Source of the DNA: Membranipora membranacea
Lineage: Eukaryota > Bryozoa > Gymnolaemata > Cheilostomatida > Membraniporidae
NCBI GenBank assembly: GCA_914767715.1
Contig: OU612068.1
Location: 31,806,001-31,870,000 of the forward strand
DNA: 64,000 nucleotides
Reading direction: 5' to 3'
Made by a program: the position numbers and the translations under genes. The notes below the pieces were generated by a model, which was not told the DNA's origin, made no database searches, and saw nothing but the letters and a program-made list of their open reading frames with translations. Below, one piece after another: positions 10,043 through 62,300 of the stretch; position 1 is the first letter of the stretch; each line of letters opens with the position of its first letter.

Positions 10043-10089
10043 GGTAATACCACAGACTATAGATAATATCCATAGTCTCTGGTAATACC
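10043..10089. mobile_element. Palindromic micro-insertion, type B, with 9-bp direct repeats
   Basis: A 29-bp near-palindrome (10052-10080; left half ACAGACTATAGATA, right half its near complement) is bounded exactly by the 9-bp direct repeat GGTAATACC at 10043-10051 and 10081-10089. This is the signature of an insertion with target-site duplication. It belongs to the same family as copies at 23872 and 41522 (see findings). It lies a few hundred bases downstream of the FKBP6-like stop codon. Confidence 0.7.
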
Positions 10090-22600: not shown

Positions 22601-25600
22601 TCCCTTTAAACATTTGCATACCATGATGCGCTTGTGCCCTGCAGATAGATGAATTAGGAACTGTTATTATTATAATCGATCATTTCTGGATTTCCCACAC
22701 CGTTCATACTTTTCTGATTGACATAAAAATGGCGATGTGCTACTGGACGTTTGCTAAATGCCAGTGTCAGTCTCTAAGGCTGTATTATTTTAGTCGTCGA
22801 ATCAATTCGCTCTGCCAAAACGAACTAAGCACAGCTCTTACTAGCCAGTGTTGATTGTAGAAGACTTTTTCTGTTAATTCCTGACAGCTGGTCACAATGG
22901 TCAGAAGAACACGATATCTCTCTAGTTGTCTAGGGATGGGTTTGGGATGGTTGTATTTTGTACCCTTCACACATGTAGACTGGTGTGCATGTTAGTATCT
23001 AGGTGTGAATGTCAGTATCTAGGTCATTTTATATGCACCAAATAAATGATTCCTCCTGTTAGAATTATGGCTGCATTGAATATGTTTGATAATACTTCTA
23101 GTCTATATTTCTCATGCTGATGAGCCATGCTTCACTGTTGTCTCTGTTGTACTGCATAACACCGGTGCTTTTCAACATTTTCTGTCTGTCGCCATTTCTT
23201 CGTGAAGATGATGATTTAAAAAATCATACCATTCTTCTTGTAAATCAGGATGGTATATGTTTAGGTCACCGGAAAGGGCAACACACAAATTTATATAAAC
23301 AGATGGTGGAGTGTAAGGTGTGTAATAAACACATGCAACTGAAAAACCTCAAGGCACACATGGAACTGGTGCATGAGAAGGTGAAAAACTTCAGCTGTGA
23401 AATCTGTGGTAAGATGTTCGGCACACGGTTCCTGGTCAAAGAACACATGGAAATTCACAAGGTACGTATGTCTTGTTCTGCCTAAACAACTTTCTGGCCA
23501 TTGTTAACAGGTAATAGTGCTCATAATCTGGCAATCCATGAAAATAACTGTGGCAAACGTCATAATTATTTGCACATAAAGCTAAATTATCATAACTGTT
23601 GCAACAACGAAAAATTGACCAATCGTAACTGTATGGCTTCCAAAAATTTTGCCTCAGTTATTGGAAAGCCATAAAAATCTCATCAGTAGTACTGACATCA
23701 AGCAGTTCCTGTTAGATTACATAAAAAGTTGATCCATTTTTCACAAAATTGATGAGGTAACCGAATCGAGTTATTAAACAGCCAACACATTTCAAAACTT
23801 CTCCACTCGTCATGCATCATTTATTTTGATGAGCAGCAGTCATAGGATATATCCTTACTCTGTGATATAAACAGAGACTATAGATATTATCTATGGTCTG
23901 TGATATAAATACAACTATGCTATTGGATCACTAAGTGAGTGTAGAAGTGTAGTCTTCTACAATAATATCCTCTTGTTCCATTATCGATGCCATAAAAATG
24001 CAGCTTTTTTGGTAAAAGAATAGTGTCATGCTACCAATACAACAATTGTGTTAAGGAGCAATGGGTCATTTAAATTTAGGTATTGGCTAATGATATATAG
24101 AGTAAGGCACACTCGTGTCGGCGCGCTCATGGGAATTTGAAACGAGTACTTCCTGTGTTTGCAGTGGAATATACTGGTAGAGGAAGTTTTGTAACACTTG
24201 GATTGACACCCCAATTTTTATCACGAGAGATCATCAATTCTGTGACAGTTTGTGATTAATATGTATGATGAACTGCACTCGCCTTTGCGATACTCATACC
24301 AGCCTCTATCCACTAATTTTTCTTAGGTCGGTCAGGTTATGCGATGAACTTCTTCTCATTGGTTTATGTGACAACAGTTGTCACACAAACTGTAGATGAG
24401 GCTGTGTGATGATAATGTCTAGCCTTTAATTATTTCTAGGAGGTGAAAATATTTTTGAAGTGTGTGTAAATGAAATAATTTGAATAAATTCTCTAGATTG
24501 TATCAGGAAGTACACCAGAGTCTCTAACGCCTCACCAGTGCAGAAATTCCTTTGTGAATTAATACCCGGGATAAATGGAACAATTGACAAGTTTCTGGAA
24601 GCAGGGTGCAACTGCAAGTGTGCAAGCAAAAGTGGAGAACATGGGCGGACAGACCTAAATATTCACTCAACGCCTCTATGAGGGTGATTTAACTTCAGCA
24701 ATTTCACAAAATTTTCATGCAAAAGGGTCACCATGGAAGTTTGCAATAGCTTCTTGAAACAAGTCGCATTCTGCTCAATTTTACAGTCATAAAGCCTTTC
24801 TCATATGTTGTATCTCATTCTCATCTAAAAATATTTTGTATCAAAAAAATTATGTTTGTAAAGCTGATTCAGAATGAGTAGTATAGTTTGTTTTAAAGAT
24901 ATCTGGCCCATAGGATTACCTCATTCATGAAAAAATATTTTTAGGATATTAACATTTACTCTCATGCATAGAGTTACCGCAACATTTTTAAGAAGTAAAA
25001 GTATCAAAATTAATTCAACCTTCTGCATTGGTTTGTTTTTGTCCAGTCACCGAAAGTGTGAATTAGAAAGTTTAAATGTTGTGAAACTTCGATACGTTCG
25101 TCAAACTGCAGACATGTAAAATAATTTCATATTTTGATCCGGTGAAAACTGGAACACATGAGACATTCACTGCCTCGAGATATCAAAACCATTGACACTT
25201 TATCTTATGCCGGTGCGGCAATGATGAAACTCATGAGAAGCAACATGCTGCTTCACGAAGATAATCTCAGACTAATCGTACACTTTCCCACCTATACAGC
25301 TGTGATCCTGTTCGGGTGAACTAAGGAGTAAAATCAGTGCACACTTTGGTCCAACTATCCTTGAACTGATAAATATATATACAATGATCCAAATGTAGCC
25401 TGAAATATAAACAAGAAATGGAAGTCCCGTCCTCCTATCTGCCCACAGGCGATTTAAAGCTCACTGAGAATGCAGTCATGATTAAGTATGTGCCACTTGG
25501 CACCAGTGACTTGTATTGTAACATAAATTCAAGAAGGTTGAATGGGTCCTCACAAAAAGTAAAAGGCTGCAGGTTAAATTTTCAACAAGCCATTTTGATA

Positions 25601-28600
25601 ATGAAACTATATCATCAGACATAAGTCAGCAGATAATAAAAATTATACATGTATTGTCACAAAAATTCATCATTTCTAATGTTTTTCATGATGTGACAAG
25701 AACATAAATGGCAAAAGATAAAGAGATTACTATATTAACGAAGAAACAACAAAAAATAAGACTATATGCCAATAAACTGAAAAAGTGTTGGAGTAGTGTT
25801 ATATTATTATAGTAAGAGTGCTTCTCAATGTAGAGGGTAAAACATTGAAGTTAGTTGCCATTTTAGTGTTATGTCTAATATCTAATGTCTAATGAGTGTC
25901 TCTTCTTGGAAATCAGTGGGGTGTGTCAACGAAAAAATGTGAGATGTAAGGAGGGGATAAATTTTTAAGAGCCTTATATTCTGTAACGGAGTAAAATAAT
26001 TGCCTAGCAGTGGACTTATTCTCAAGGCTCATTTTTGCTGAGTCCTGTCACGCTGAAGCTATGATATGATGGATCTCAGGATTGGTTATAGTATTGCTCA
26101 TTTATATGCTAGAGACCTATGTCCGAGATTTATGGAGTCAAATCATTTATTTTTCAAGATAAATACTTTGTCTGTATTATGTACACACTCTACTAATAAT
26201 GTTAAATTGTTAAAAGTGTCACTCATCATCTTTCAATTCAGGATACACCTTATTTTCAATTTTGTTTTGTTTTTTCTTTTTATCTGACACAATATGAAAC
26301 ACACTCCTATAAAAATGAAATTGCTGCCAATAAACTTGCGAAGAAAAAGAAATCAACAACCATAGTTGGCTAGGAAACCAAGCCTAGCCAAAACCTCCAC
26401 AGTAATTATAACGCCCATTTAATCAGAGCCATGATTCATAAGGTGTTGATCATTCTGTTAAATTTCATCCATCAGAGTTAATTCGCTGAAAATTGCTTTT
26501 CAGCATTTTTTTTGATGGAAATAAATGTATGCAACACTAACCGAATTTCAACAATCCTTGTGATTGGTTCGCTTCAGACGACTGGATAATGGGTAACAAC
26601 TTACAACATCCATAGACGTGTCAGTCAAATTACATTTTCAAAACATAAAATTTACACTTTTTGACCCACTTTAGGACCCACTTTAGGATCCAAGTTTTTT
26701 TTTTGCGGCGACACAGATATACTTTCTGAAAAGAAAAATATAATAGTTGATACAGTCTTTTACATCTGGCAACGAGTGTCTTGACATGGCTGTAGTTCAG
26801 CAACATTCTTACTCAGGCTGTTACAATGATCTCCATTAGTTTAGCGTGGGCACTCAAACTGTGCCGGAGTAGCTGGTCGTGAAAGATGTTGATAATTATT
26901 ACTTTTGTCCTTTTTTTTCATATTTTTTGTTTACGAGGTCAAATATTTCGTCAATAACATCCTTATATATATGAAAATCTCAATAATAACGCATATTAAT
27001 AATAAAAATTAAATGCCACTACCAGTTTAACCCCTTAAACTACTATTAGTTATAACTCTCAAGGTTTCCATGTAATGTTATAGAGTGTGACGGAGAGACA
27101 TCGTCCCTGGAAGTGTGCCCTGTGTGGAGCAGCTTTCTACAAGAAGCTACCTCTGGACGAGCATATGGCTAAACATGTCGGCCAGCCTCAATACTCCTGT
27201 GATCAATGTCCTAAAAAGTTCTACCATCTCAGTGGCTGGAAGAGACATATACAGCACCATGGTGAAGCCAGACCCTTTGTATGCAATGTAAGTTAATAAT
27301 GTTAATACATTATATGTTTGCATATATGTTTTAAAAAAATGCTTTAAATAAATTTGCAATATGTGTGGTTTGGGACTTTGTATTAGTGAAAGAATTATCA
27401 AATCAATCAAGTTCTCAATTTATTGCCAAATTTTTTTATAATAAACGTTTAATTGCTTTTTAATTGCATTTTTCTTTAGAAAATTTTGACTATCTGTGGT
27501 GAAAAAAATTTTTTTTTTTCTTGTATCAGATATGTGGAAAAGCTTTCAAAACCAGCACCAATCTTAGTGCTCACAAGACGGTTCATACACCGATGGCCTT
27601 TATGTGTCTCTGTGGGAAATCTTATCAACAGAAACATACTTTGAAGTCGCACCAGGAGAAATGTCCGATGCATCAGGATATCATAGCCTCCCAACTAGCA
27701 GAAGAACAATACCACACTGCTCAAAAGTACGTATACAAGTCATAGGTGTAACGACGTTATTTGTACTTTTTGTTGTATTTTTTACAGATATATTGAAGGT
27801 AGGAATAAGGTTTTCACTCGAATCAAATCACTCTAGTGGTGAATTGTTCTGTTTGTCTATCATCAACTTAACACTGCTAACAGATCCATTCTACACCACT
27901 GCAATTTGCAGCAATGCTGTAAAATATAATTATCATGAAATGAAATCATATCATCACAGAGTAAGGATATATCCACAGAGTAAGGATCCTTACTCTGTGG
28001 ATATATTCCTACTCTGTGATATCATCATCAAAATCTTTTGACAAAGTGAATCCTGTAATGAAATCATAAATAATCTGCAGGGCCGAAAATTGATTACTCA
28101 CGATGGTGGGCAGCAAATGTGTGAAGTAACCGTGCTGGCTAACCAGGAAATTTCATCTCATTGGTGTATTCAAAAATTAAAGTATTTTACAACACTGAAT
28201 TTCCTCAGGTCTTGTTCTTTACTTCAACTTTATACCAAAGATTATAAATACTCATTGTTTATACTTACTGGTATAAAACATCTGCTGTTTCAATAGCACA
28301 GTTATCAATATATACTTGAGGAAAAACAGGTGGATCACGGCTTGTGGTAAAAATCATTTCATGTGGTTGGATTCAGTAAAAGATCGCTATTATTACAAAG
28401 TATGCAAATTCTATTAACTTCTTCTTGGTATAACATAAAATCACTATCAGACTGAATATTTCCTATATAATAACCATGTCATCGGCATATTTTAGCACTG
28501 TGACATTTGAGGTAGCAGAAGTGATAAAATCAGTATATATCGAGAAAAGCAGTGGTGACAAAACTGTACCCTGAGGAGTACCAGTATATTAGTGGTCATA

Positions 28601-30703
28601 CGTCTAGAACAATCTGAGTCAAATTTAGTATATTGAGTGCGGTCAGCTAAAAAATTGAAATCCATGAAGTGACATTTGGGTCTAAGTGTGTCAGTTTTTC
28701 AACTAACTTAGCTACACATATCGTATTAAATGCGGACGAAAAATCCAAAAACAAGCACCTACTGTAATTGCCAGCCCTAGCATCAATGAACTTAGTTACA
28801 TAAGAAGCAAGTTGCAAAACAGCATCTTGAGTAGACCTATGAGATTTGTATGCAAATTGTAATGCATCTGAAACAGTATTAGTAGTAATGTATGACTTGA
28901 TCACAGAGTAAGGATATATCCTTACTCTGTGACTTGATCAAACGCTCTAAGGATTTACATAAACAACTAGTTAAAGCTATTGGCCTATAGTCTTTGAGCT
29001 GCTTAGGTTTGCTTACTTTTGGCAGTGCTCTGATCTCTGCAGTTTTCCATATACTGGGTACCTCTCCATGCTGTATGCTGCAGTTGAAGATGCCAGTAAG
29101 AACAGGTGCTAGTTGGTAAGCACACAACTTGATCAATCTTAGGCAGGATACCATCTGGGCCAGGGCCCTTTCTGTGGTTCAGTCGACGAAGCTGCATCAG
29201 TACATCAGTTTCTGGTATATCAGATAAGGGTGTATGGGGGTTGTACATCTTATTCATCATAAAAAACGAAGCAATACATTGACAGGCAATTCACTAATGT
29301 TGGCAATATTTTAATCAATTTTATATTTGTGATGCGTTCTATTCACTATGGAGTTTTACCCTGAATCCAAATTAATTTTTCCTGATCTGAAACGGTTTTT
29401 ATTCCGCAAGTGAGAACACATGACTAACCCCGGCTATAAATAAAGCTGTGTTTTTTTATTAAAGGTCTTGAAGCACTGTGGACAATTTGGTGTTGAAACA
29501 GCACTCCTATTATCAGTTGCCCCTGATTGCAACACTGCTGACTTTTTGTCGCTGTGATGTTGTGTAAAATTGATGTTTTATAACAAAACTATCCATTTGC
29601 AATAGGTGTAAAGCTGTAAACCATCTAGTTTAATTTTCACCTTTTTTCTTGATTGACACTAAATAATAACTAACAATAATTTGGGAATGCGGCTGTAGAA
29701 GCAGCGCTGTAGACACTATGTTAGAAAGGCTGTCAAATTAACAGCGATGATTTTCAGATCATTAGCTTGAGGTGTTATGGAGTCAATGTCAGGGTCATAA
29801 TTAATGTGAGACAAACCCTATGTCTGATGGCTTTTTGTCGTGATACTGCTTATACCAAAAAGCCATTAGATTTTTTATAACAGATAGCATCAGTTATCAA
29901 AAATTTCATCTTAAACATTCAATCAATTGATCATAGAGATTGTCTGTTGAATTCATTAATTTTCATTGGTACCAAATTTAATGCAAATGATTTTCAATGA
30001 AATGATCATGATACTTATTACCTTGAAACCAAACAGTATTACTGAAGATTACTCATTACCTATGACATTGGTCATTGGACATTGGTCTTGGGTCTTTGTC
30101 AGGATATTTACTGATTAGTTTGTGTTTGCTTGATGACAAACTGTGTCAATAGCCAACATATGAAAATACAACAATCCTAATTTTTCTTTTATCTTGTGAT
30201 TACCCTTCTTTAAATAATATACTCATTTTCCTCAATACAAAAAATTGCAAAATTTGTCCTAGACAGAGGAACTTACTATATTCCTACAGGCTTTTCTGCA
30301 GACTACAATTACAGCCACATGTTTGTTAGTACTTTGTATGCAGATATGATATGTATTTCTTTCTTCTATGATATTGGTATATAATTTCTATCCTGTTATG
30401 TACTTATTTTCCTCTCTGTAGGTATATGTGTGGATTCTGCCAGGCCACATTTTTTGACTTCAGCCTTGTAGAGGAGCATGTAAAACAGCATGTGGCCGAT
30501 TCTGTGAGTATCTCTCCTCCATCCTCATATTCTACGACCAGATATCTGTCATACATATTTACACTTATGGATACATGTAAATAAGTTGTTGATAAATTTC
30601 TACCCAAAATATTCCTTCCATAAAAAATGTAATAAAAGATTATCAATGAAATACTGTCAATATTTTCTGTGGGTCTGAGATTCATGATGCTGTCCTTTGA
30701 TAT

Positions 30704-30734
<31 letters not shown>

Positions 30735-33135
30735 TTATTATTTATATAATATTATATATTTTATATATTATATATACATCAGGTTGAGAATGAAGGACTG
30801 GAGAGTACGCTATCTCTAACTGAACAGCAGACAGATGAGCAGGACCTTCCTCCTGGAGTTATCGACGGTAGTGGACTCGATCACTTGGCTATGACTGCAG
30901 CTCTAGAACAACAGAACATGATATCCACCACCTCTGGGGTAAGTTAGATATCCACTACCTGTGGGTTAAGTTAGATATAGCTAACAGAGATGGTGACCAT
31001 GTCAATCAGGTCACTATCCCACGCAGGCCACCTGAGGGTCTGTTAAATAGGGCGGTCAAATAAGACCTAGTGTAAAGAAAGAAAGAGAAAGAAAGAATTC
31101 TGGGTCCTCCATTTTAGTGCTGAACGGCAATGTATTAAAGGGCTACAGAGCTCCTTTGATTTTACTGCTATAGAAATAGTTCTACGGTTGGTGTTCCTTT
31201 AATCAGTGAATAAAGGCTTATCAAAGAGAGACAATTTCTGCTTTACTTGCAAGTGATGCAAATTGAAGCATCATATTAACGTGGTAATGTTTTTGATCTC
31301 TGCGTATGCCCATCTTTAGCATTTCCTTCTGATGACAGTTGAAGGCATCAACCTCTTTTCAAACAGCCTTTGTGATAGAGTTTTATCCAAATCAATCACA
31401 AAATTCATTGCTTTCATTAACAAACTTACTTGTTCTGTTAAAATGCAAGTCTGTCATCAGGCAGGAACACCTCAATTAAAGCGCTGCCATCAATGAGTTA
31501 GATATAGTGGGGATGTTTGAGCTTTTGATTGATCTTTTTGAAAATTTAATTGTAAGCATCCGAGTTGCAATAGGCACATTGAAATACACGTGTAAGTTGT
31601 GCGCGTTGATTCTGGTGCATTATTCTGCAACTTCTGTGAGCAATTAAAAAATACACAAAGTTTCACACCTTATTACATCTCAGAATTTATATATCTTGTT
31701 CAGATCATGTTTCACATTACATCCTCAAAAAGATTGTTAATGATGATGAGGAATGCAGTCTCCCTGACATTGACAAGCTTCAGAAAGGCTGTCAGTGTTC
31801 CATGGTTAAAGCTGAGAGTTAAAAGATCGCATTCACTCCCTGTGTTGCGAAGAGAATTTGTACCTTTTGGCCAATCTTGACTGTATTATTAACGCTTGTG
31901 ACACTGATGTTATAAACTGGACACTTGCATACATGTCCTGAGTTAACCTATTTAAAATTTCCATTGAATATGAATATCTGATGGTTGATTAGTATTAAAT
32001 ATCGCCAAACCAATCAAATCCATCAACTTGAGCGATGATATTTCTGAATCAGTTTTTTTTTAATTTTGACTTGTACTGTGTGCAGAAAGAACGCCTACCC
32101 ATTTGCACAAGAATTGTGTTGGTTATCTGATAACATGTCGTACAGCAATAATAGAAATTCTGAGTCAACTAACCTTCAACCCTTCTAACAAGCATTCATG
32201 AAAAAGGCCAGATTCTATGGAAATGTAATTATGAATATGAAATGTATACTGATTTTGATTGGTTGTTTTGCTTGAAGTATGCTAAGAACAGTTATTTTTT
32301 TACTCAAGTTTAAATTTCCTCCCAAAGCCTAAAATCTGTCACAAATTGATGTTAAACATTCGATTTAGTTAGTAGGAGGAAAGATTCTCCAGAAAAATCA
32401 CAGAATTGTTTCCTTATTGTTACATACTTATTTGTTGAATCACTGATTGCCATATCAGATTTACCTGCTTAATATTACTCAGACTGACCTCATCAGATCA
32501 TAGAGACAACAGATATATCCTCATTCTGTGATCAGCTGTTGCTTGTTGGCTTGCTTGGTTTATTCTGGTCAGGACAAGGAATTACCATGTATGATCTAGC
32601 GATGCATGAGTTTTTAATCTCAAAGCGTAAAAGCAAGATAGTTATAAAACTTGACAATGGCAAAAACATACAACCCCCCCCCCCTACATGACTTTCAAGT
32701 TCACCTTATATGTAGTTACAGGGTTTACTAATGATTTACTGCGTTTCTCTGATATATTTGTTATATTATTATATTATACACTCTGTACAGGGGCGAGCGC
32801 TGATTGTGACTGATATTGGGGGCGAGCAGGTACAGCAGCTTGTAGTCTATCAGGACGGCTCACTTATACCTGAGAACTCGCAGCTCACCACAGCTCAGCT
32901 TACCTCAAGCTCCATAGTGTCTCACACTAACACACATCAGCTTATCGATCAGGAGGGGCGACTCATCGACGCAAACGGACAGATAATAGAGCAGACAGGT
33001 CAGCAGCTGAGACCAGAGACTGAACAGGAGGGTCAGCAGGTACAGCTTATAACTGGGTCTGAGACTAGACATGAAGATATGGTGGACCAGGCTATTCCTG
33101 GTGTAGTGACTGCTGATAGTGAAAACCCTCAATAA
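16687..33135 (+). CDS. C2H2 zinc-finger protein, about 953 residues, 16 exons
   Basis: Probable DNA-binding nuclear protein. Exons: 16687-17029, 17144-17361, 17915-18062, 18354-18476, 18830-19002, 19752-19854, 20023-20175, 20345-20480, 21339-21480, 22157-22298, 23265-23461, 27084-27287, 27530-27726, 30422-30503, 30783-30938 and 32791-33135. All phases join without a stop (2862 nt). About twelve C2H2-type fingers are visible: two near the N-terminus (WQCPFCEEG..HIHNEH about residue 80; YHCPTCDK..HLKSH about 135), then a Ser/Asp-rich acidic stretch with a basic RRSGRKRRP patch (about 300), then a block of ten from about 466 to 782 (for example WKCALCGAAFYKKLPLDEH, YSCDQCPKKFYHLSGWKRH). Finger 5 has odd His spacing and finger 11 uses C-x-C and ends in Cys. 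The tail is Gln-rich, suggesting a transcriptional activation region. I do not recognise a named orthologue. No KRAB, BTB, SCAN or SET domain is seen. Confidence 0.85.
17509..17531. repeat. (TTTA)n microsatellite
   Basis: Short run of TTTA units in intron 2 of the zinc-finger gene. Its minus-strand complement (TAAA)n could mimic polyadenylation signals, but no gene ends here. Confidence 0.8.
23844..23909. mobile_element. Palindromic micro-insertions: half type A copy plus complete type B copy
   Basis: 23844-23864 (AGGATATATCCTTACTCTGTG) is the right part of a type A palindrome whose left arm is degraded. Directly after it, a 29-bp type B palindrome (23872-23900; starts CAGAGACTATAGATA, ends ATCTATGGTCTG) is bounded by the 9-bp direct repeat TGATATAAA at 23863-23871 and 23901-23909. 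The type B copy therefore appears to have inserted at the edge of an older type A copy. It lies in the 3.6-kb intron between zinc-finger exons 11 and 12. Confidence 0.7.
27948..28027. mobile_element. Nested palindromic micro-insertions, type A within type A
   Basis: The outer copy (27957-28018) begins CAGAGTAAGGATATATCC and ends TTCCTACTCTGTG, flanked by the 9-bp direct repeat ATATCATCA at 27948-27956 and 28019-28027. Its centre is split by a second perfect 24-bp palindrome whose half is ACAGAGTAAGGA. This inner copy is bordered by GGATATATCC on the left and GGATATATTC on the right, consistent with an approximate 10-bp duplication of the outer copy's centre. Intronic, between zinc-finger exons 13 and 14. 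Confidence 0.7.
28430..29262 (-). pseudogene. Non-LTR (CR1/L2-type) reverse transcriptase relic
   Basis: Antisense relic in a zinc-finger intron. In minus-strand order it reads: HRKGPGPDGILPK; a frameshift; then HGEVPSIWKTAEIRALPKV and LKDYRPIALTSCLCKSLERL; a 37-nt insertion that shifts frame; then ALQFAYKSHRSTQDAVLQL and CLFLDFSSAFNTI; another frameshift; then TPQGTVLSPLLFSIYTDF and the catalytic-type box YADD followed by a stop. These are reverse transcriptase motifs in correct order, and the DYRPIALT...AYKSHRST style is that of CR1/L2/Rex-like LINEs. No endonuclease, tail or target duplication is visible, so it is a dead fragment. The 37-nt insertion is a palindromic micro-element with its target duplication (28894-28940). 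Confidence 0.88.
28894..28940. mobile_element. Palindromic micro-insertion, type A, inside an RT relic
   Basis: A 27-bp palindrome (28904-28930; half CAGAGTAAGGATA) is flanked by the perfect 10-bp direct repeat GACTTGATCA at 28894-28903 and 28931-28940. It lies inside the reverse transcriptase relic on the other strand. Deleting the palindrome plus one repeat copy (37 nt) rejoins ...ERLIKS to YITTNT... in one frame, which shows directly that the palindrome is an insertion and the repeat is a target-site duplication. Confidence 0.85.
30702..30780. repeat. AT-rich microsatellite
   Basis: An (AT)n run followed by an imperfect TATATTAT-type tract, immediately upstream of the acceptor of zinc-finger exon 15. 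It separates the branch-point region from the exon but leaves a usable CAG acceptor. Confidence 0.8.
32507..32534. mobile_element. Probable decayed type A palindromic micro-element
   Basis: A degenerate palindrome with GATATATCCTCATTCTGTG on the right and an eroded complement on the left (ATAGAGACAACAGATATATC). It resembles the type A element but has several mismatches, and only a partial flanking repeat (ATCAG) is seen. Intronic, before the last zinc-finger exon. Confidence 0.4.
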
Positions 33136-40251: not shown

Positions 40252-43200
40252 TCATGGACCGGGAGGCAGTTTGTTTATCTTGCATAAGGGTACATAATCA
40301 CGCAACTGTGCGAATGCACAGGACCCAACGCCTCCTTTTGCCATATGATTGAGGGTTTCATTTGTCTGTCCAATTAAAGTCTCTAGAATAGGCTGCTTTG
40401 ATAGACCTTGTGACTCTGAAATAAAGAGAAATATGGTTAATAAATTAATCTAACTGGTTTGATTTTGGTGGAGTGCATGTTTTGGAAACATGCTAGGAAT
40501 TAAAGCGCGTCGATACAGATAATTAGACAGCAGGAAGTTGCTAAAGGTTTCTCTTATTTGTCCCCATACTCACTCACTTGTCTGAGGTGTTAAAAACTAT
40601 CTTGTCCTGATAACTAACAACGTGAGGATGTAAGTATACCATAAATGGAAGTGATGTACATGTCACACTATATGCTGACACTTTCTGCTGGTTGGTTCAG
40701 CTACTTAATTCTCAGTAACCAAACCTGCTGTTAAACTTGACATACGATGGCAGGTTTAACTGGTGTATGAATGAAATATATCGGCGATTATTTGCCGTTG
40801 ACGTACAGCCAGCAGTAAATCAACAATAGCTAATTATGGTTAAAAATTTTAATTTGAGCAATCATAGGGGTATGTGAGGCCATTATGTTTGAAGCAGAAT
40901 ATTCAGTAAGTTCTCACAAACAGATAAGCGTTAATTCGATATTTAGTGTCTGGATAAGGGACTGCCATCATTCGAAATTTCTTTTGCTGTCAATTGCAAT
41001 AACTTTTAAAAATTCGATTTCGCACTTGTACGGCTTTCTGGTTTTCGAGATTATTCCCAACCGCATATACTTTTAATCCATAAGCTCAATATGATCCATT
41101 TTTCAATTAATAAGTTTTGAAAAACGAAAATGTGATTCCAGAGTTGAGACTGATCACAAGGACTCAAATCTTCTGACAAATCTGTATTGTTAGTGGTTTG
41201 CTTCTTACCGAGGGATTTGATTCAACTTATTGCTCCCAAACAAGACTCAGGTGGTTCAAGTCATTTGCAAATCTGCTCGTTGAAGCAGCCTGTTATTCAA
41301 CTCAGATTCTGAACTTATTACATTCTCCGTGGTTTGAATTCCAAGCTTTCTAGCTAAATTAAATTCTGTTTGATGAATACACAATGAGGAGACTTAAAGC
41401 GATCAGCAATCAGTACTTTCATTGACAATGTAATCAACTAATGCTACACACCAAGTCCCCACCACACAACCCCATGCATTCAGATAAAATTTCTCTCCAC
41501 CCTCAATCTACAGACCTGGACCAGAGACTATAGATACTATCCATAGTCTCTGCTTTGACTATTAGCCACCACGGGCACTGTTGATCACATACATACTTAT
41601 AACCTGTGAGCTGCCCCCTCCCTGTCTGATGATCTAGCTAGTCCCTAACCTTTACACTACAACCGAGAGTCAGTAACTGGCTTCATAGACCAATGGGTTG
41701 TGGTGGAGTTTGGCCATTGGGTTCTGGGTACATAGTTGTGGTTTGGATACATACATGACGTTCTCAATAACGTTTTATGCTGAGGATTTGAGTACTCACT
41801 GGATAGGGTGATATTGCAATTTGAAAAATAGGTATGCTAATAATGGGATAAAATACCAGCTGCACCCTGTTTCTCTGTTTATTGATGCAGAGCAGTCGAA
41901 TCTGAGTCACTAACCGAGAGCTCACAGCCGATAAGGTGGGAATATATTGTGGTGTGGCATTTTTGAAAGCGTTGATTAATTATAGACTTTTTTCCGGCTT
42001 CACACTTCATTTTTTATATTTGTGACAGTACCAAGAGAAAATACACTGGTGGCTGTCATTCCAACTAGCCAATGACCAAATGAAGTGGATTAATGATTCA
42101 AAGGAGATTTCCCCTCCCTACACCCCAACAGTATTATCTCATGTTGGCATATTTGAAGAATACGGTATAACTAATGACAGTACTGTACGACGGTAGAGTT
42201 CTGACTCACCTAGTATAGCACGATTGAGATCAGCACATACAGGCTCCCTCTCCACTGGGTCAAGCTGAGACCCCACAGGACTACTCCACGGATCTGCATA
42301 GGCTAATAAACTGAATACTGCCTAAAATAAAGTAAGGAATAATTTGGTTACAATTTAAAATACTAAGTGAAAATCATAATTCATTCTTTTTTGAGTTGTC
42401 TCCTCTTGGATGTTAGAGGAACAACTCTGAGGGAACATTTGGATGAGAATATGGTTCGCTGGGAGCCCCCCTCCTATCTTATCACTTCCACTTACGAATT
42501 TGGATGGATAAGGTTTGTCAGCTGGTATTTTCTGGTCATACTGGTACAGTTTTTTTTCACATTGACTGCAATGGTTATATGGTACCTTACACTAAGTTGC
42601 ACAATAGGCCGCTAATTGCCAAAAACGCTGCCGGTAAAAGGGATGTTCATAAAAAATGATGGGATGGTTTCAAAACATCCAAAATAATTGGTGGATCTTC
42701 AACTTTACTTGGGTGTGCTATCATAAATAGCCGAGATACGGTCAACAACGGTTGCAATACCCCTTATATCACCTGTATATAACTATCATTAAAACAAAAC
42801 TACTTTTTCAATTATGCTGCTGCTTAAAAAACTGACTTCAAATGTTCATATTGATCTGATTTTTTATGGTGACTTTGTATTGACCCTCTCATTGCATAAC
42901 ACCAGTTTTAAATTCTCTGAGTGTGTCGTTTTTCAAATAGTGCGTACTTCTAGGTTCCCATTATAGTATCGTAAAATTTGTCTTCATAAGGTTATTAGCG
43001 TGTAATACAAAAATTAACTCCTTCAAGTATCATCAAAAAGGTGCGTAGTGCTAAAAAAAACTTTTTGGTCAATGATGGAGTCAATACAAAACCACCATAA
43101 AAAAGTCATTTGAAGTCGGTATTCGAGGCTACTGCAAGATTGAAAAAGTAGTGTCGTTTCAATGATAGTTATACACAGGTGATATAAGGGGTATTGCAAC

Positions 43201-55600: not shown

Positions 55601-58062
55601 GACACTAATAATCAGGAAGCACTTTATCTCTGAATGAAATCTTGATCTCTTTCGCAAACAAAGGCCAAAGTCTGGCTTGAGTGCCAGATACAAATGATAT
55701 ACAAATTGTGATTGTACTGCAGTGATCGACTATAAAACCCGCTGCATTACAATTCAAAAGCCCACTGCTGTTACAGCTACAGTGTGATTTCTTGTTCAGG
55801 TCAATACAGCTCTTTGTTTGGTTAATTGGCTAATGCCTACTCAGCTTTTGTGTTAACTGCTTACACCTATTAGAACTGTAACAACTAGTGATGTTTTAAT
55901 TGCTACTCAATGACCATAGTGAACAAGCTCAGTCTTGACACTCTGGTATTTCAGTACACATTGTTTATGTTATAGTGAAACTTAGGAGAGATTGTGATGG
56001 GAGTAGCTAGGTTTTGTTTGGGATAATTGTAAATAGTGCATGGCCATCACCTCAAGTCTATACCAGCTCAAGCAGATCTTGTTTGGTCAAAGAAAGATAT
56101 GAATGAGCGCTCTGTATAAAATGTGGACATAACTTGACATATGGCTGTCATTACTTGTGCATTAGCAATAAGCTGCAATAAGCTAATGTAACCCAACCCT
56201 ATAAGTCACCAGTTGATGTTCTATTCATTACTCATTTATCTTGATTATACTTTCACATCAAATTAACATAGGTTTACACTGTACAAATTATTAGGACAGA
56301 GTTAGAGTGGTGGTCGAGAAGTCCGATAAGGGATCAAACCGTAGTATCTATTATTTGTAACTATGTAGTGTTAGGGTACATGATGGCCAATTTTCTTATT
56401 ATTCTGTTTTGTAAGGAACACAAATAATGATCCCTGCGTCATGTGCTAAGCGTCGGTGTTAAACTTTGTATGAGATGCATCTAGTCTTGTCACGCAGCCA
56501 TTTCTTTTTTTGTGGTGGGGTATCAAGGCTAGATGCACCTTTGTATGTGACTACTTGCCCTTTGTCGGTGCCCTCGTGGTTCTTATAGTTCTCTTGTACA
56601 ATTTTTTAGTTCCCAAAATGCCAAAAAATGGGAGGTAGAGCTACAAACACTAAAGAATAACAATGCCAGATTAACTACAGCCTTGCAGGAGAGCACAATC
56701 AATGTCACGGAGTGGAAAAAACAACTGGCCAGCTACAAAGAGGAAAATGCAAATCTCAAGAAAATGGTTTGTATGCTGCTTAGTAAACATGTATTCCGTC
56801 AATGAAAATGGCAGGGTTTCAACACCTGAGACACAGAATGCTTCTTTTGCAATCACTTCATGCCCCATAAAACACAGGGGACCATTTTATAATTAGGCCT
56901 ATAATTAGGCTTTCCTGTTCCTTCAAGTCTTTTTGCTCCCTCTATATTACAAATTTCACATGAAGAATGTTTTAATAAAGAGAGGAAATGCTAATTATAT
57001 CACATCACACTACAGGGTTGGTTTTGTCATTGGTCATTTTTACATCAGTTGGTATTGAGTTACCCTCTAAATAATGTGGAAATGTTTATCTATTTCAGGT
57101 TATAGAATTTGAACAAAATCAACCGAACCATCAGGAGACAGTTACTAACATGCAAAAAGAGATGAATGGAATGATGGAAAAATTAACCATAGCCGAGAAT
57201 GATAAACGTAGTGCACAACAGGTATGTTGATAGCATATCTTAGGTGGGCAAGGTTATGTATGTATTACAAGGAGCATACTTATTGGATAGTTTAGCAGTA
57301 ATAACAATAAGTATTGTATCAGGATAGGGTCGATATGAGGTTTGTCGTTTGTCGAGATGATCTTTGGTTTTTTGACCAAATACATCACTTCCAAAATCTT
57401 TCAAATATGGATTCCGTTTGCAAAACTGATCACATGGTCCAAGAAAAGAGTTCATTTCTGTCGCTGCTCTAACGTTGTGGTGAGAGAATCTCACAATTTG
57501 TTGCTTATTATTCCACACTCTTCTATCTTGTGTCTGCAGGAGCTGGAATCGGCGAGATCAAAGTTTGGTTTGGTAGCCCAACTAGAAGATTCAAACAGGA
57601 AACAAGAACAGCAAATGATGGTAAGTGTATTATATGTACAATGTTTGTATCATCAAGAACTGTGTAACAATGATGTTTTTCAGCACATGCATACCAGCTG
57701 AATACACAACTCAACTCAAAGTTTGTAGTTGATTCATTGTAAAAATACCATGTATTTTATCAGGTGATTATTACTATCATCAAATCAGTGAAGGGACTAG
57801 TTTGAGAGTCCCTGCAACAAAGTCAACATACAATGTTGTGCAGTCGATTAATTCTGCCCATTACTGAATTTTATAGGAAATAACACGAGAAAAGAATGAG
57901 CTGGAAGCTAAACTGAATGCAGTAATAGATGAGCTAGATAAAACTAGATCATCTCAGACTACAGATAAGTCTGAGATGGTCAGAGTACATGACATCATCA
58001 GCCGTAACGTATCTGAGTTAATGAACGCACAGAGCCAGCTTGCCAAACTGCTCAACTCATAG
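52603..58062 (+). CDS. HOMER: Homer scaffold protein
   Basis: Homer links receptors and Ca2+ channels bearing PPxxF motifs (mGluR, IP3R, Shank) through its EVH1 domain and tetramerises by a C-terminal coiled coil. Nine coding exons: 52603-52607, 52764-52920, 53131-53262, 54181-54321, 55424-55578, 56610-56766, 57099-57221, 57540-57620 and 57877-58062, giving 378 residues with all phases consistent. The first coding exon contributes only ATG GG. The protein begins [23 protein letters not shown]1 spans about 1-105 and keeps Phe14, Trp24, Phe74 ([12 protein letters not shown]) and Gly89 (NTVYGLGF), the residues that form the ligand groove in mammalian Homer1. A Pro/Ser/Thr linker with a small GNTMP-like repeat (about 165-175) follows. 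The coiled coil runs from about 185 ([20 protein letters not shown]) to the C-terminus ([18 protein letters not shown]), which matches the conserved end of long Homer isoforms. It is close to human Homer1 in length. Confidence 0.97.
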
Positions 58063-59336: not shown

Positions 59337-62300
59337 TCATAGCTTGAGCTGACGTCGTACATAAAATAGAATATAGGCTTTACTTTTGGTGACAGTCTCC
59401 TCTGAACATGCTGTAACTGTGCTGTCGTTGAAATGATACCATGTCTTATCGTGTGTAGCATATGATGTGTAGTGACCTGATCCCGCACTAAAAGGATAAA
59501 CACATAATAATTGCAGGCATGGATCATAACACAAATACCAAAAATTTCATATAAAAGTTGTCTGCTCATCACTTTGTCAGCAAAAATGCAGCGATATTTC
59601 ATGTTGTATCTTAAGTATCGATTGTATAGAGAGGGAGCTTTGGTTTCAAATGAATCATAGGTTTTCATACATGCGTACATACATACATGCATACATACAT
59701 ACATGCATACATGCGTGCGTGTGTACGTACGTACGTACGTACGTACGTACGTACATACATACATACATACATACATACATACATACATACATACATACAT
59801 ACATACATACATACATACATACATACATACAAAAATGTAATATAAAAAGTATAACAAAGATATGCCTAATATTAAAAATGTTTGTGTTGTGCCTAAAAGT
59901 ATGTGTCGTAATCATAAAGCTGTTGAAAGAGAGAGGAAACACCTGGATGACAGCGTGTTTAAACAACATCATCACTGAAAGGATACCACCAGACTGGAGG
60001 GAGAGCACAATAACACCAATATATAAGCAGAAAGGAGACCCTTTAGACTGCGGAAATTACCGGGGGATTAAACTGCTGAGCCACTGCCTTAAGCTACTGG
60101 AGAGGATAATTGAGCAGAGAGTTAGTCACAATCAAGGAAAACCAGTATGGATTTCAGAAGGGAAAATCAACCACAGAGCCCATGTTCTGCCTCAGAATTC
60201 TTCAGGAGAAACACCAAGGGTACAACAAAGCTCTTCATATGGTGTTCGTAGACCTTGAAAAAGCCTATGATACCATACCACGTGAGCTGATATGGTTTTG
60301 CTTACGAAAGCGAATTGTTCCAGAGCAGTACATCGACATCATCAAAGACATGTACAAAGACTGCTGCACCAGTGTTAGGACGGACTCCGGACTGACAGAC
60401 AAGAATCACATTAAAGTTGGATTACATCAAGGATCGGCACTAAGCCCGCTGCTTTTCATCATAATAATGGATGTTATAACAGAAGACATAAATGAGGACA
60501 GCCCATGGGCAATGTTATTTGCTGACGATCTGGCCCTTTGCGATAGTGATCGAGAGAGACTAGAGAGAAGGTTAGAGATCTGGAGAGAGAAGATGGAGGC
60601 AGCTGGATTGAAGATAAGCCAAAAGAAAACAGAGCATTTGCCAGCAGTTGGAGACCAAGAGAACATCAGGATGAAGAAGTATGGGAGTCAAGAAGCGGAA
60701 AGCCTGCCTAAATGTTCTCAGTTCAAGTACTTGGGCACAACAATCTACCAAGATGGAGGTTGCCGCAAGGAGATAGAACTGAGAATATCCAAGGCTTGGA
60801 ATAAGTGGAGGGAAATGACTGGTGTGCTCTGTGACAAGTAAATGCCTACTAAACTGAAAGTGCTGATGTATAAAACAGCTATCAGACCAGCTCTGCTATA
60901 TGGAAATGAGACATGGCCAATCACAGGATCTCTGGCGGATAAGATGTCATCCTGCGAAATGCGAATGTTGAGATATTGTATGGGCATAAGTCTAGAGGAC
61001 CACAAGAGGAATGAAGAAATAACAGCAGAGGCCGGAGTAATGCCAATTAAAGATCTGATGAGGAGAAAGAGAATGCAGTGGTATGGGCATGTTAGACGGA
61101 GAGAAAGTGAGGACGACATCCGGAGAGTGTCAGAGATGACAGTCGAAGGAGTGCGACCTAGGGGTAGACCGAAACAAAGATGGTGTGACACGGTGAACTC
61201 AGACCTTAGATGGCTTGATCTAGATGGATCAGATGCTGAAGATCGAGTGCGATGGAGGAGTTTGGTAGAACTTGGAATCAAGCAGAAACCCGCCACCCGC
61301 GCAGGACCACGGCAGTGAAAGGTGACCAAAGGTGACCTAAAAGTATGTGTCGTAGTGTCAGGGCAACAATCCCTGGGACAACCGTGTATCACTGCAATAA
61401 CAACTTACCCTGAGCCGTGATGTACAACTACAGCGGCTAAATCATACTCTGTACTTCCTGTATTATCACGCGTTCGTCTCTATAAGAATGAAGGTCAAAT
61501 AGTATAAATAAACGAGAATAATTCAGATTGCTGACACACGACTGTTGACACCGATGAGCATAGAAACTGTAGGCGTATGTATTGTCCTTGTATTCTACAT
61601 CATAGCACTGGATTTAAATCTACGATCATTACTGCTCATGGAAAACGATCAACTTTTTGCCAACAGCGTGTATATCAAAATCAGTTGTTCAGTCCACATT
61701 GAGAATTGAAGTTAGATTGACTAGATATAAGTGTTGCCCAAGTACTCAGACTGTTATAGGGGTGGGTGGACGTTCTATTACTACCGCTCTGCTACTGACT
61801 TTGAAGGCAGAGTCACATTAATGGAATATGAATTAATTACTTTTATATACACTTATTTTAGGATGAATTAATCTAAATTATTGTGGAGAATAAGTGAGCA
61901 TAATTTATGTCCACAATCAGGAAAAGTTAATTGTTAAATCTGATGACGTATACCAAGCAATCAATAACAAAACCACAAGAACTGTTAACCTTTTGCCAAA
62001 ATCTTTGATTATGAACATGAATAAACACCATTATTATTCATAAGTCTCACATAAAGTTTTTTAGCCGGCTAACTTAGGAAGTTTAGCACAACAAAACTCC
62101 CAGCTAGTAGGCAGAGTTAGTCCTATAATTGTTAGGGTTGTTGTCTCATTGTTGTAGTGCAATGTCAGCCAACACAAAGCTCTGTGATTCTCACACTCAC
62201 CACATTATTGAGTTGATAAGAGCTCATATCGAGGCCAGACGTCGGAAACTCCACATATGTCTCAATCTTAGTTCTGAGAAATGAGTTCCATCTAAATCTC

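Follow-up and report, generated by a model that had tools for sequence, protein, structure and literature searches.

Dispersed short palindromes in the Membranipora membranacea genome as likely end-joining excision footprints of a P-superfamily transposon

The window, by which we mean the whole 64,000-nucleotide stretch of DNA analyzed here, carries zinc-finger exons and non-LTR retrotransposons. In the relic of a non-LTR retrotransposon reverse transcriptase on the minus strand (28680..29200, limits approximate), the coding sequence is split by a perfect 30-bp palindrome, CACAGAGTAAGGATATATCCTTACTCTGTG, at 28902..28931. The palindrome is bordered by two copies of the heptamer ACTTGAT, the left at 28895..28901 and the right at 28932..28938; no strand is assigned to these or to the other palindromic features of the window. 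From the base composition, about 0.00016 perfect palindromes of at least 30 bp are expected by chance in 64 kb. A further reverse-transcriptase segment, with a 243-aa open frame and an RVT_1 match (E 1.1e-29), is located at 60110-60838 of the window.

A sequence-only reading of this locus had described a palindrome half CAGAGTAAGGATA, flanking GACTTGATCA repeats and a broken reverse-transcriptase frame, all of which are present in the window. Joining the flanks after removal of 37 nt restores the frame through ...CKSLERLIKSYITTNTVSDALQ..., and a 147-aa stretch spanning the rejoined flanks matches RVT_1 with an E-value of 4.2e-13, confirming the proposal that the palindrome is an insertion into the frame. 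In the window copy alone, several divisions of the symmetric insert are possible, namely 26+11, 28+9, 30+7 or ones with shorter repeats. The earlier division into a 27-bp palindrome and a 10-bp duplication takes in these 37 nt with the starting point rotated. A split into 30 + 7 is preferable, since 7 bp is the longest repeat length generally shared by the 49 copies described below.

Palindromes of the same family, termed family A, occur elsewhere in the window. At 27955..28018, a 64-bp putative footprint contains a second one of 26 bp, the outer duplication (ATATCAT) being exact and the inner one imperfect; we take this arrangement to reflect nesting. The inner copy sits in the AT-rich center of the outer one, which resembles the preferred target, and the palindrome at L035:4981-5028 in the sampled DNA also looks compound. 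An old, diverged family A copy is found at 32499..32530 (flanks ATCAGAT / ATCAGCT) and a decayed one, with one arm eroded and unmatched flanks, at 23841..23864. A second family, B, is represented by 31-bp palindromes at 10051..10081 (CACAGACTATAGATA arm, exact duplication GTAATAC), 23872..23902 (exact duplication ATATAAA) and 41522..41552 (imperfect flanks CCTGGAC / CTTTGAC).

A search of the assembly (339 Mb, 18 contigs) with the 26-bp core of the palindrome, allowing up to 3 mismatches, found 1,016 places and none with the reversed control, in agreement with membership of a dispersed family. An exact 20-mer of the palindrome had no match in viral_contigs or genome_contigs, from which records near the genome of the window are perhaps excluded. 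The duplication was analyzed in the first 50 of the 1,016 places, all exact and all on contig C1, together with the window copy, with the element ends taken as CACAG...CTGTG. L030 and L031 were left out as duplicates of the L029 segment, giving 49 independent exact copies. Nearly identical flanks surround one palindrome three times in L029, L030 and L031 (G000:C1:21.79-21.84 Mb), which looks like a local segmental duplication.

The duplication is kept on both sides of the palindrome over exactly 7 bp in 30 of the 49 copies and with at most one mismatch in 39. When the right flanks were shuffled (2,000 shuffles), the mean number of exact 7-bp repeats was 1.2 and the maximum 5. Longer repeats are rare, with an exact 9-bp repeat (28+9) in two copies and an 11-bp repeat (26+11) in one. 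Shorter ones are exact in 33 copies at 5 bp (32+5) and in 34 at 3 bp (34+3), and these are the inner part of the same 7-bp duplication. Copies with GTGCTAT or TTGCCAA repeats match over all 7 positions although their outer letters are not A...T, which argues for 7 bp rather than a shorter length. The enrichment of direct repeats for which the sequence-only reading had proposed a test is present, at a length of 7 bp instead of the 9-10 bp it had named. In 10 of the 49 copies no such duplication is found even when one mismatch is allowed, for which decay or trimming may be responsible. The 30 palindromes with exact duplications define a target ATNNNAT, in which the A-T letters at positions 1-2 and 6-7 each reach 0.87-0.88 (30 sites, both strands counted).

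The sequence-only reading had also called for a longer element or a transposase with the same termini, and such elements exist. Their inverted repeats start with CACAGAGTAAGGATATA followed by CAGAGGGG, and the 17-nt arm of the palindrome at 28902..28931 is identical to the first 17 nt. The 25-nt end CACAGAGTAAGGATATACAGAGGGG occurs 557 + 515 = 1,072 times in the genome (up to 3 mismatches; control 0), and pairs of exact ends delimit elements of 522-710 bp and of 2.5, 5.4 and 5.9 kb. A 256-bp element at L022:4660-4915 has the ends CACAAAGCAAGGATATACAGAGGGGACACTTCA and the flanks ATTATAA / ATTTTAA. Eleven end pairs occur among the first 100 places listed, and the ends of ten were examined. Exact 7-bp duplications border six of the ten (ATATAAT, ATAATAT, AAGTTAT, TACACAT, TAATTAT and ATATTAT) and two have a 7-bp duplication with one mismatch. 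The other two share flanking sequence, one with an exact 8-bp repeat (ATGTGTAT) and one with no exact repeat. The length of the duplication and the kind of target motif are therefore common to the long elements and the palindromes.

Whole-genome searches gave 78 matches to Tnp_P_element (PF12017) and 134 to the RNase H-like domain of P transposase (PF21787), with no signal for either in 14 control genomes. The 5,915-bp pair at C3:29036945-29042859, which has the exact duplication TAATTAT, contains both domains in one 317-aa open frame. PF12017 at C3:29039699-29039875 is weak alone (28.2 bits against a cut-off of 23, E 7.3e-4), and PF21787 at C3:29039900-29040295 scores 125.3 bits (E 4.8e-34); from 134 matches in 339 Mb, about 0.002 PF21787 matches are expected by chance in 5.9 kb. 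No PF12017 or PF21787 match is listed in the 5.4- and 2.5-kb pairs on C6, and P-type domains were thus seen in one of the three long pairs. The domains of the 5.9-kb element may come from a nested second P-type element. Judged by sequence features, the source is best explained as a member of the P superfamily, because the two domains coincide with the duplication, the target motif and the CA ends: the inverted repeats start with CA, the duplications are of 7 or 8 bp and the target motif is palindromic.

The centers of the palindromes vary. A pattern of two 12-nt arms separated by 0-30 free bases occurs at 709 places in the genome (control 0), and the junctions of the first 50, all on contig C1, were read. 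Their lengths range from 26 to 43 bp. Self-complementary microhomology products of four kinds make up 32 of the 50: the 30-bp form with a TATA overlap (20), 28 bp with ATAT (5), 32 bp with TA (4) and 26 bp with AT (3). These would be the products expected from microhomologies within the tail CACAGAGTAAGGATATA. Of the remaining 18, three are blunt, among them the 17+17 product without trimming; the other 15 have filler of 1-11 nt, part of which repeats nearby sequence. One 1-nt filler type occurs three times (both strands counted), and some of the 1-nt "fillers" may instead have arisen from the 30-bp form by point mutation. Among the 50, the center holds short filler only and there is no MITE-type interior with one master length.

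These junctions bear on the possibility that the 30-bp palindrome moves as a mini-element in its own right, consisting of two minimal ends placed back to back and mobilized in trans by the P-type transposase. The high copy number would agree with such a unit, as would the recurrence of one and the same sequence, flanked by 7-bp duplications, at sites unrelated to each other. However, the centers vary as in end joining, each filler type of at least 2 nt was seen once among the 50 palindromes read, and the arms end at 17 nt. Moreover, a cut inset by 17 nt on both strands would leave a 30-bp unit with no duplex to insert. We regard mobility of this kind as improbable.

The limit of the arms was examined in the same 50 palindromes. 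The match to the long repeat extends for exactly 17 nt in 57 of the 100 arms and for 12-16 nt in 42; one arm, in a copy that differs from the 30-bp form by a single substitution, matches 18 nt, and no match is longer, so that 99 of 100 arms retain at most 17 nt of the end. This limit is partly inherent in the 30-bp form, where the overlap adds to the apparent length of each arm, and joins made after trimming yield the same 30-bp product. In the whole genome, both arms reach 18 nt at one place, compared with 709 places with arms of at least 12 nt, the two-sided 18-nt pattern needing 15 exact letters per arm and the two-sided 12-nt pattern only 12. A border at 17 nt points to an inset cut, since internal deletion would ignore it.

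It is this border that makes it very improbable that the palindromes are extreme MITEs, formed from the 522-710-bp non-autonomous elements by loss of internal sequence. The ends, the duplication and the target motif are the same in both, and one longer-armed palindrome is known, at G000:C6:26255498-26255542. This place, the only one found in the genome where both arms extend beyond 17 nt, is probably a true internal-deletion derivative. However, random deletion predicts many arm lengths, and long-armed forms are scarce (1 place versus 709). The suggestion of an extreme deletion derivative mobilized in trans is not supported by this comparison. The other origins put forward, a Mutator-type derivative or a new kind of hairpin-mediated insertion, draw on a direct repeat that can be read as 9-11 bp at the window copy and have a negligible probability: Mutator-like elements make 8-11-bp duplications, and a Mutator origin with 9-11 bp is rejected on the 7-bp duplication across the 49 copies, a long element with the same ends has P-type transposase domains, and the junctions resemble end joining of 17-nt tails.

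We consider it very likely that the small palindromes are footprints left by end joining after excision of a P-superfamily transposon, because they share 17 nt, the duplication and the target with the long elements, one of which has P-type domains, and because of the junction classes seen in the 50 copies. They are probably not mobile units. The transposase of the P element is known to make its 5'-strand cut within the element, at a distance of 17 nt from the end (PMC7776569). From this chemistry and from the limit on the arms, we infer a cut at the same distance here; excision itself and the repair pathway are inferred as well.

The following sequence of events would account for the observations. 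A P-superfamily cut-and-paste transposon inserts at ATNNNAT and duplicates 7 bp, as seen in the sampled copies, and would later excise at the sites now marked by palindromes. If the transposase cut both 5' strands 17 nt in from the ends, the chromosome would keep two 3' tails of 17 nt with the same sequence. Cellular end joining would then align the tails, mostly through the terminal TATA to judge from the junction types, and fill them in. Annealing of the TATA ends would give exactly 30 bp (17+17-4), and the end product would consist of duplication, palindrome and duplication. The palindrome at 28902..28931 is accordingly best explained, from its sequence, as two 17-nt transposon tails sharing a TATA overlap. 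Each copy would be an independent scar that needs no mobility of its own, although a scar may be mobilized again and may also serve as a repeat target.

More short palindromes of the CA...TG type, flanked by 7-bp duplications, turned up in a scan of about 296 kb of sampled DNA (315,780 bases less two duplicate loci). Family B (CAGAGACTATAGATA) spans 24-35 bp and family C (CAAGGAGTAACAG) 23-33 bp, the latter with flanks such as GTAGTAC/GTAGTGC. A 21-bp type, CAACAGCTCA, has flanks with one mismatch. CATAGA-type palindromes of 33-40 bp have exact 8-bp duplications (L016:3558-3593, L020:218-257 and L033:1850-1882); their arms are near 16-20 nt, and their source may cut at another distance. Outside family A, and with no CA start required for inclusion, palindromes with an exact 7-bp or 8-bp repeat start with CA in 5/5 and 3/3 cases, respectively, compared with 1/4 at 5 bp and 1/5 at 6 bp. 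A looser scan also yields cases without CA, such as 56473-56540 of the window and an AT-repeat in L034. By analogy with family A, the other families would be excision footprints as well.

A broader proposition is that excision repaired by end joining is a main fate of P-type insertions in this animal, seemingly in several families alike, and that scars rival or outnumber intact elements. Scars occupy 709 places compared with at most about 536 two-ended copies (1,072 ends), in searches that allow different numbers of mismatches. We hold this combined proposition to be rather unlikely. If it were true, it would fit a P-type transposase, active or domesticated, that excises elements routinely and perhaps under developmental control, while the scars remain as fresh AT-rich targets for further insertions.

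Repeat annotation could easily label the palindromes a mini-MITE family, although they make more sense as traces of excision and repair. As such, they offer a way of counting past transposon excisions. Hundreds of junctions formed from one fixed 17-nt substrate would amount to a natural assay of germline end joining, covering microhomology choice, filler and trimming, in an animal that lacks genetic tools. The junctions further predict where a P-type transposase of, to our knowledge, untested chemistry would cut. Footprints of this type are already known from the laboratory, and the new aspect is probably the scale, since P-type excision junctions here form a natural library that spans the genome and can be mistaken for a repeat family. 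No report of such a natural footprint family of hundreds was found among the matches listed from open-access PMC texts.

Several known systems share single features with these elements. Repetitive hairpin-forming elements of sponge mitochondria are also short dispersed palindromes, but as described in PMC2800124 they are mitochondrial, and the likeness is one of resemblance only. Dada-U6 and Dada-U1 have 6-7-bp duplications and, in the description given in PMC3706591, no terminal inverted repeats; such repeats are present here, which speaks against these Dada families. The P-derived MITEs of Anopheles gambiae are non-autonomous and share ends and duplication with P elements, and the 256-710-bp elements resemble them. 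In the account of PMC1562414, these MITEs have 8-bp duplications and a central region, which the palindromes lack.

Galileo, a member of the P superfamily, shares with the elements described here duplications of 7 bp, in some cases 8 bp, and a target that is AT-rich and palindromic (PMC4168063). Its consensus GTANTAC (PMC4168063) resembles GTAATAC of family B and GTAGTAC/GTAGTGC of family C, whereas family A prefers ATNNNAT. The inverted repeats of Galileo are long and internally repetitive according to PMC3573991, unlike those of family A.

The closest parallel is provided by the Drosophila P element. At the end-joined excision sites in Table 1 of PMC2895639, both duplications are kept together with at most 17 nt from either end, and the joins are made through (AT)/(TA), blunt or with inserted filler, as in the palindromes. 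In many of the tabulated joins almost the whole tail is lost, and products of this kind would escape the patterns used here. The Drosophila footprints come from a laboratory excision assay in spn-A mutants and have an 8-bp duplication (PMC2895639). The palindromes differ in being natural copies in their hundreds, with a 7-bp duplication and a TATA tail that makes the commonest product a perfect palindrome.
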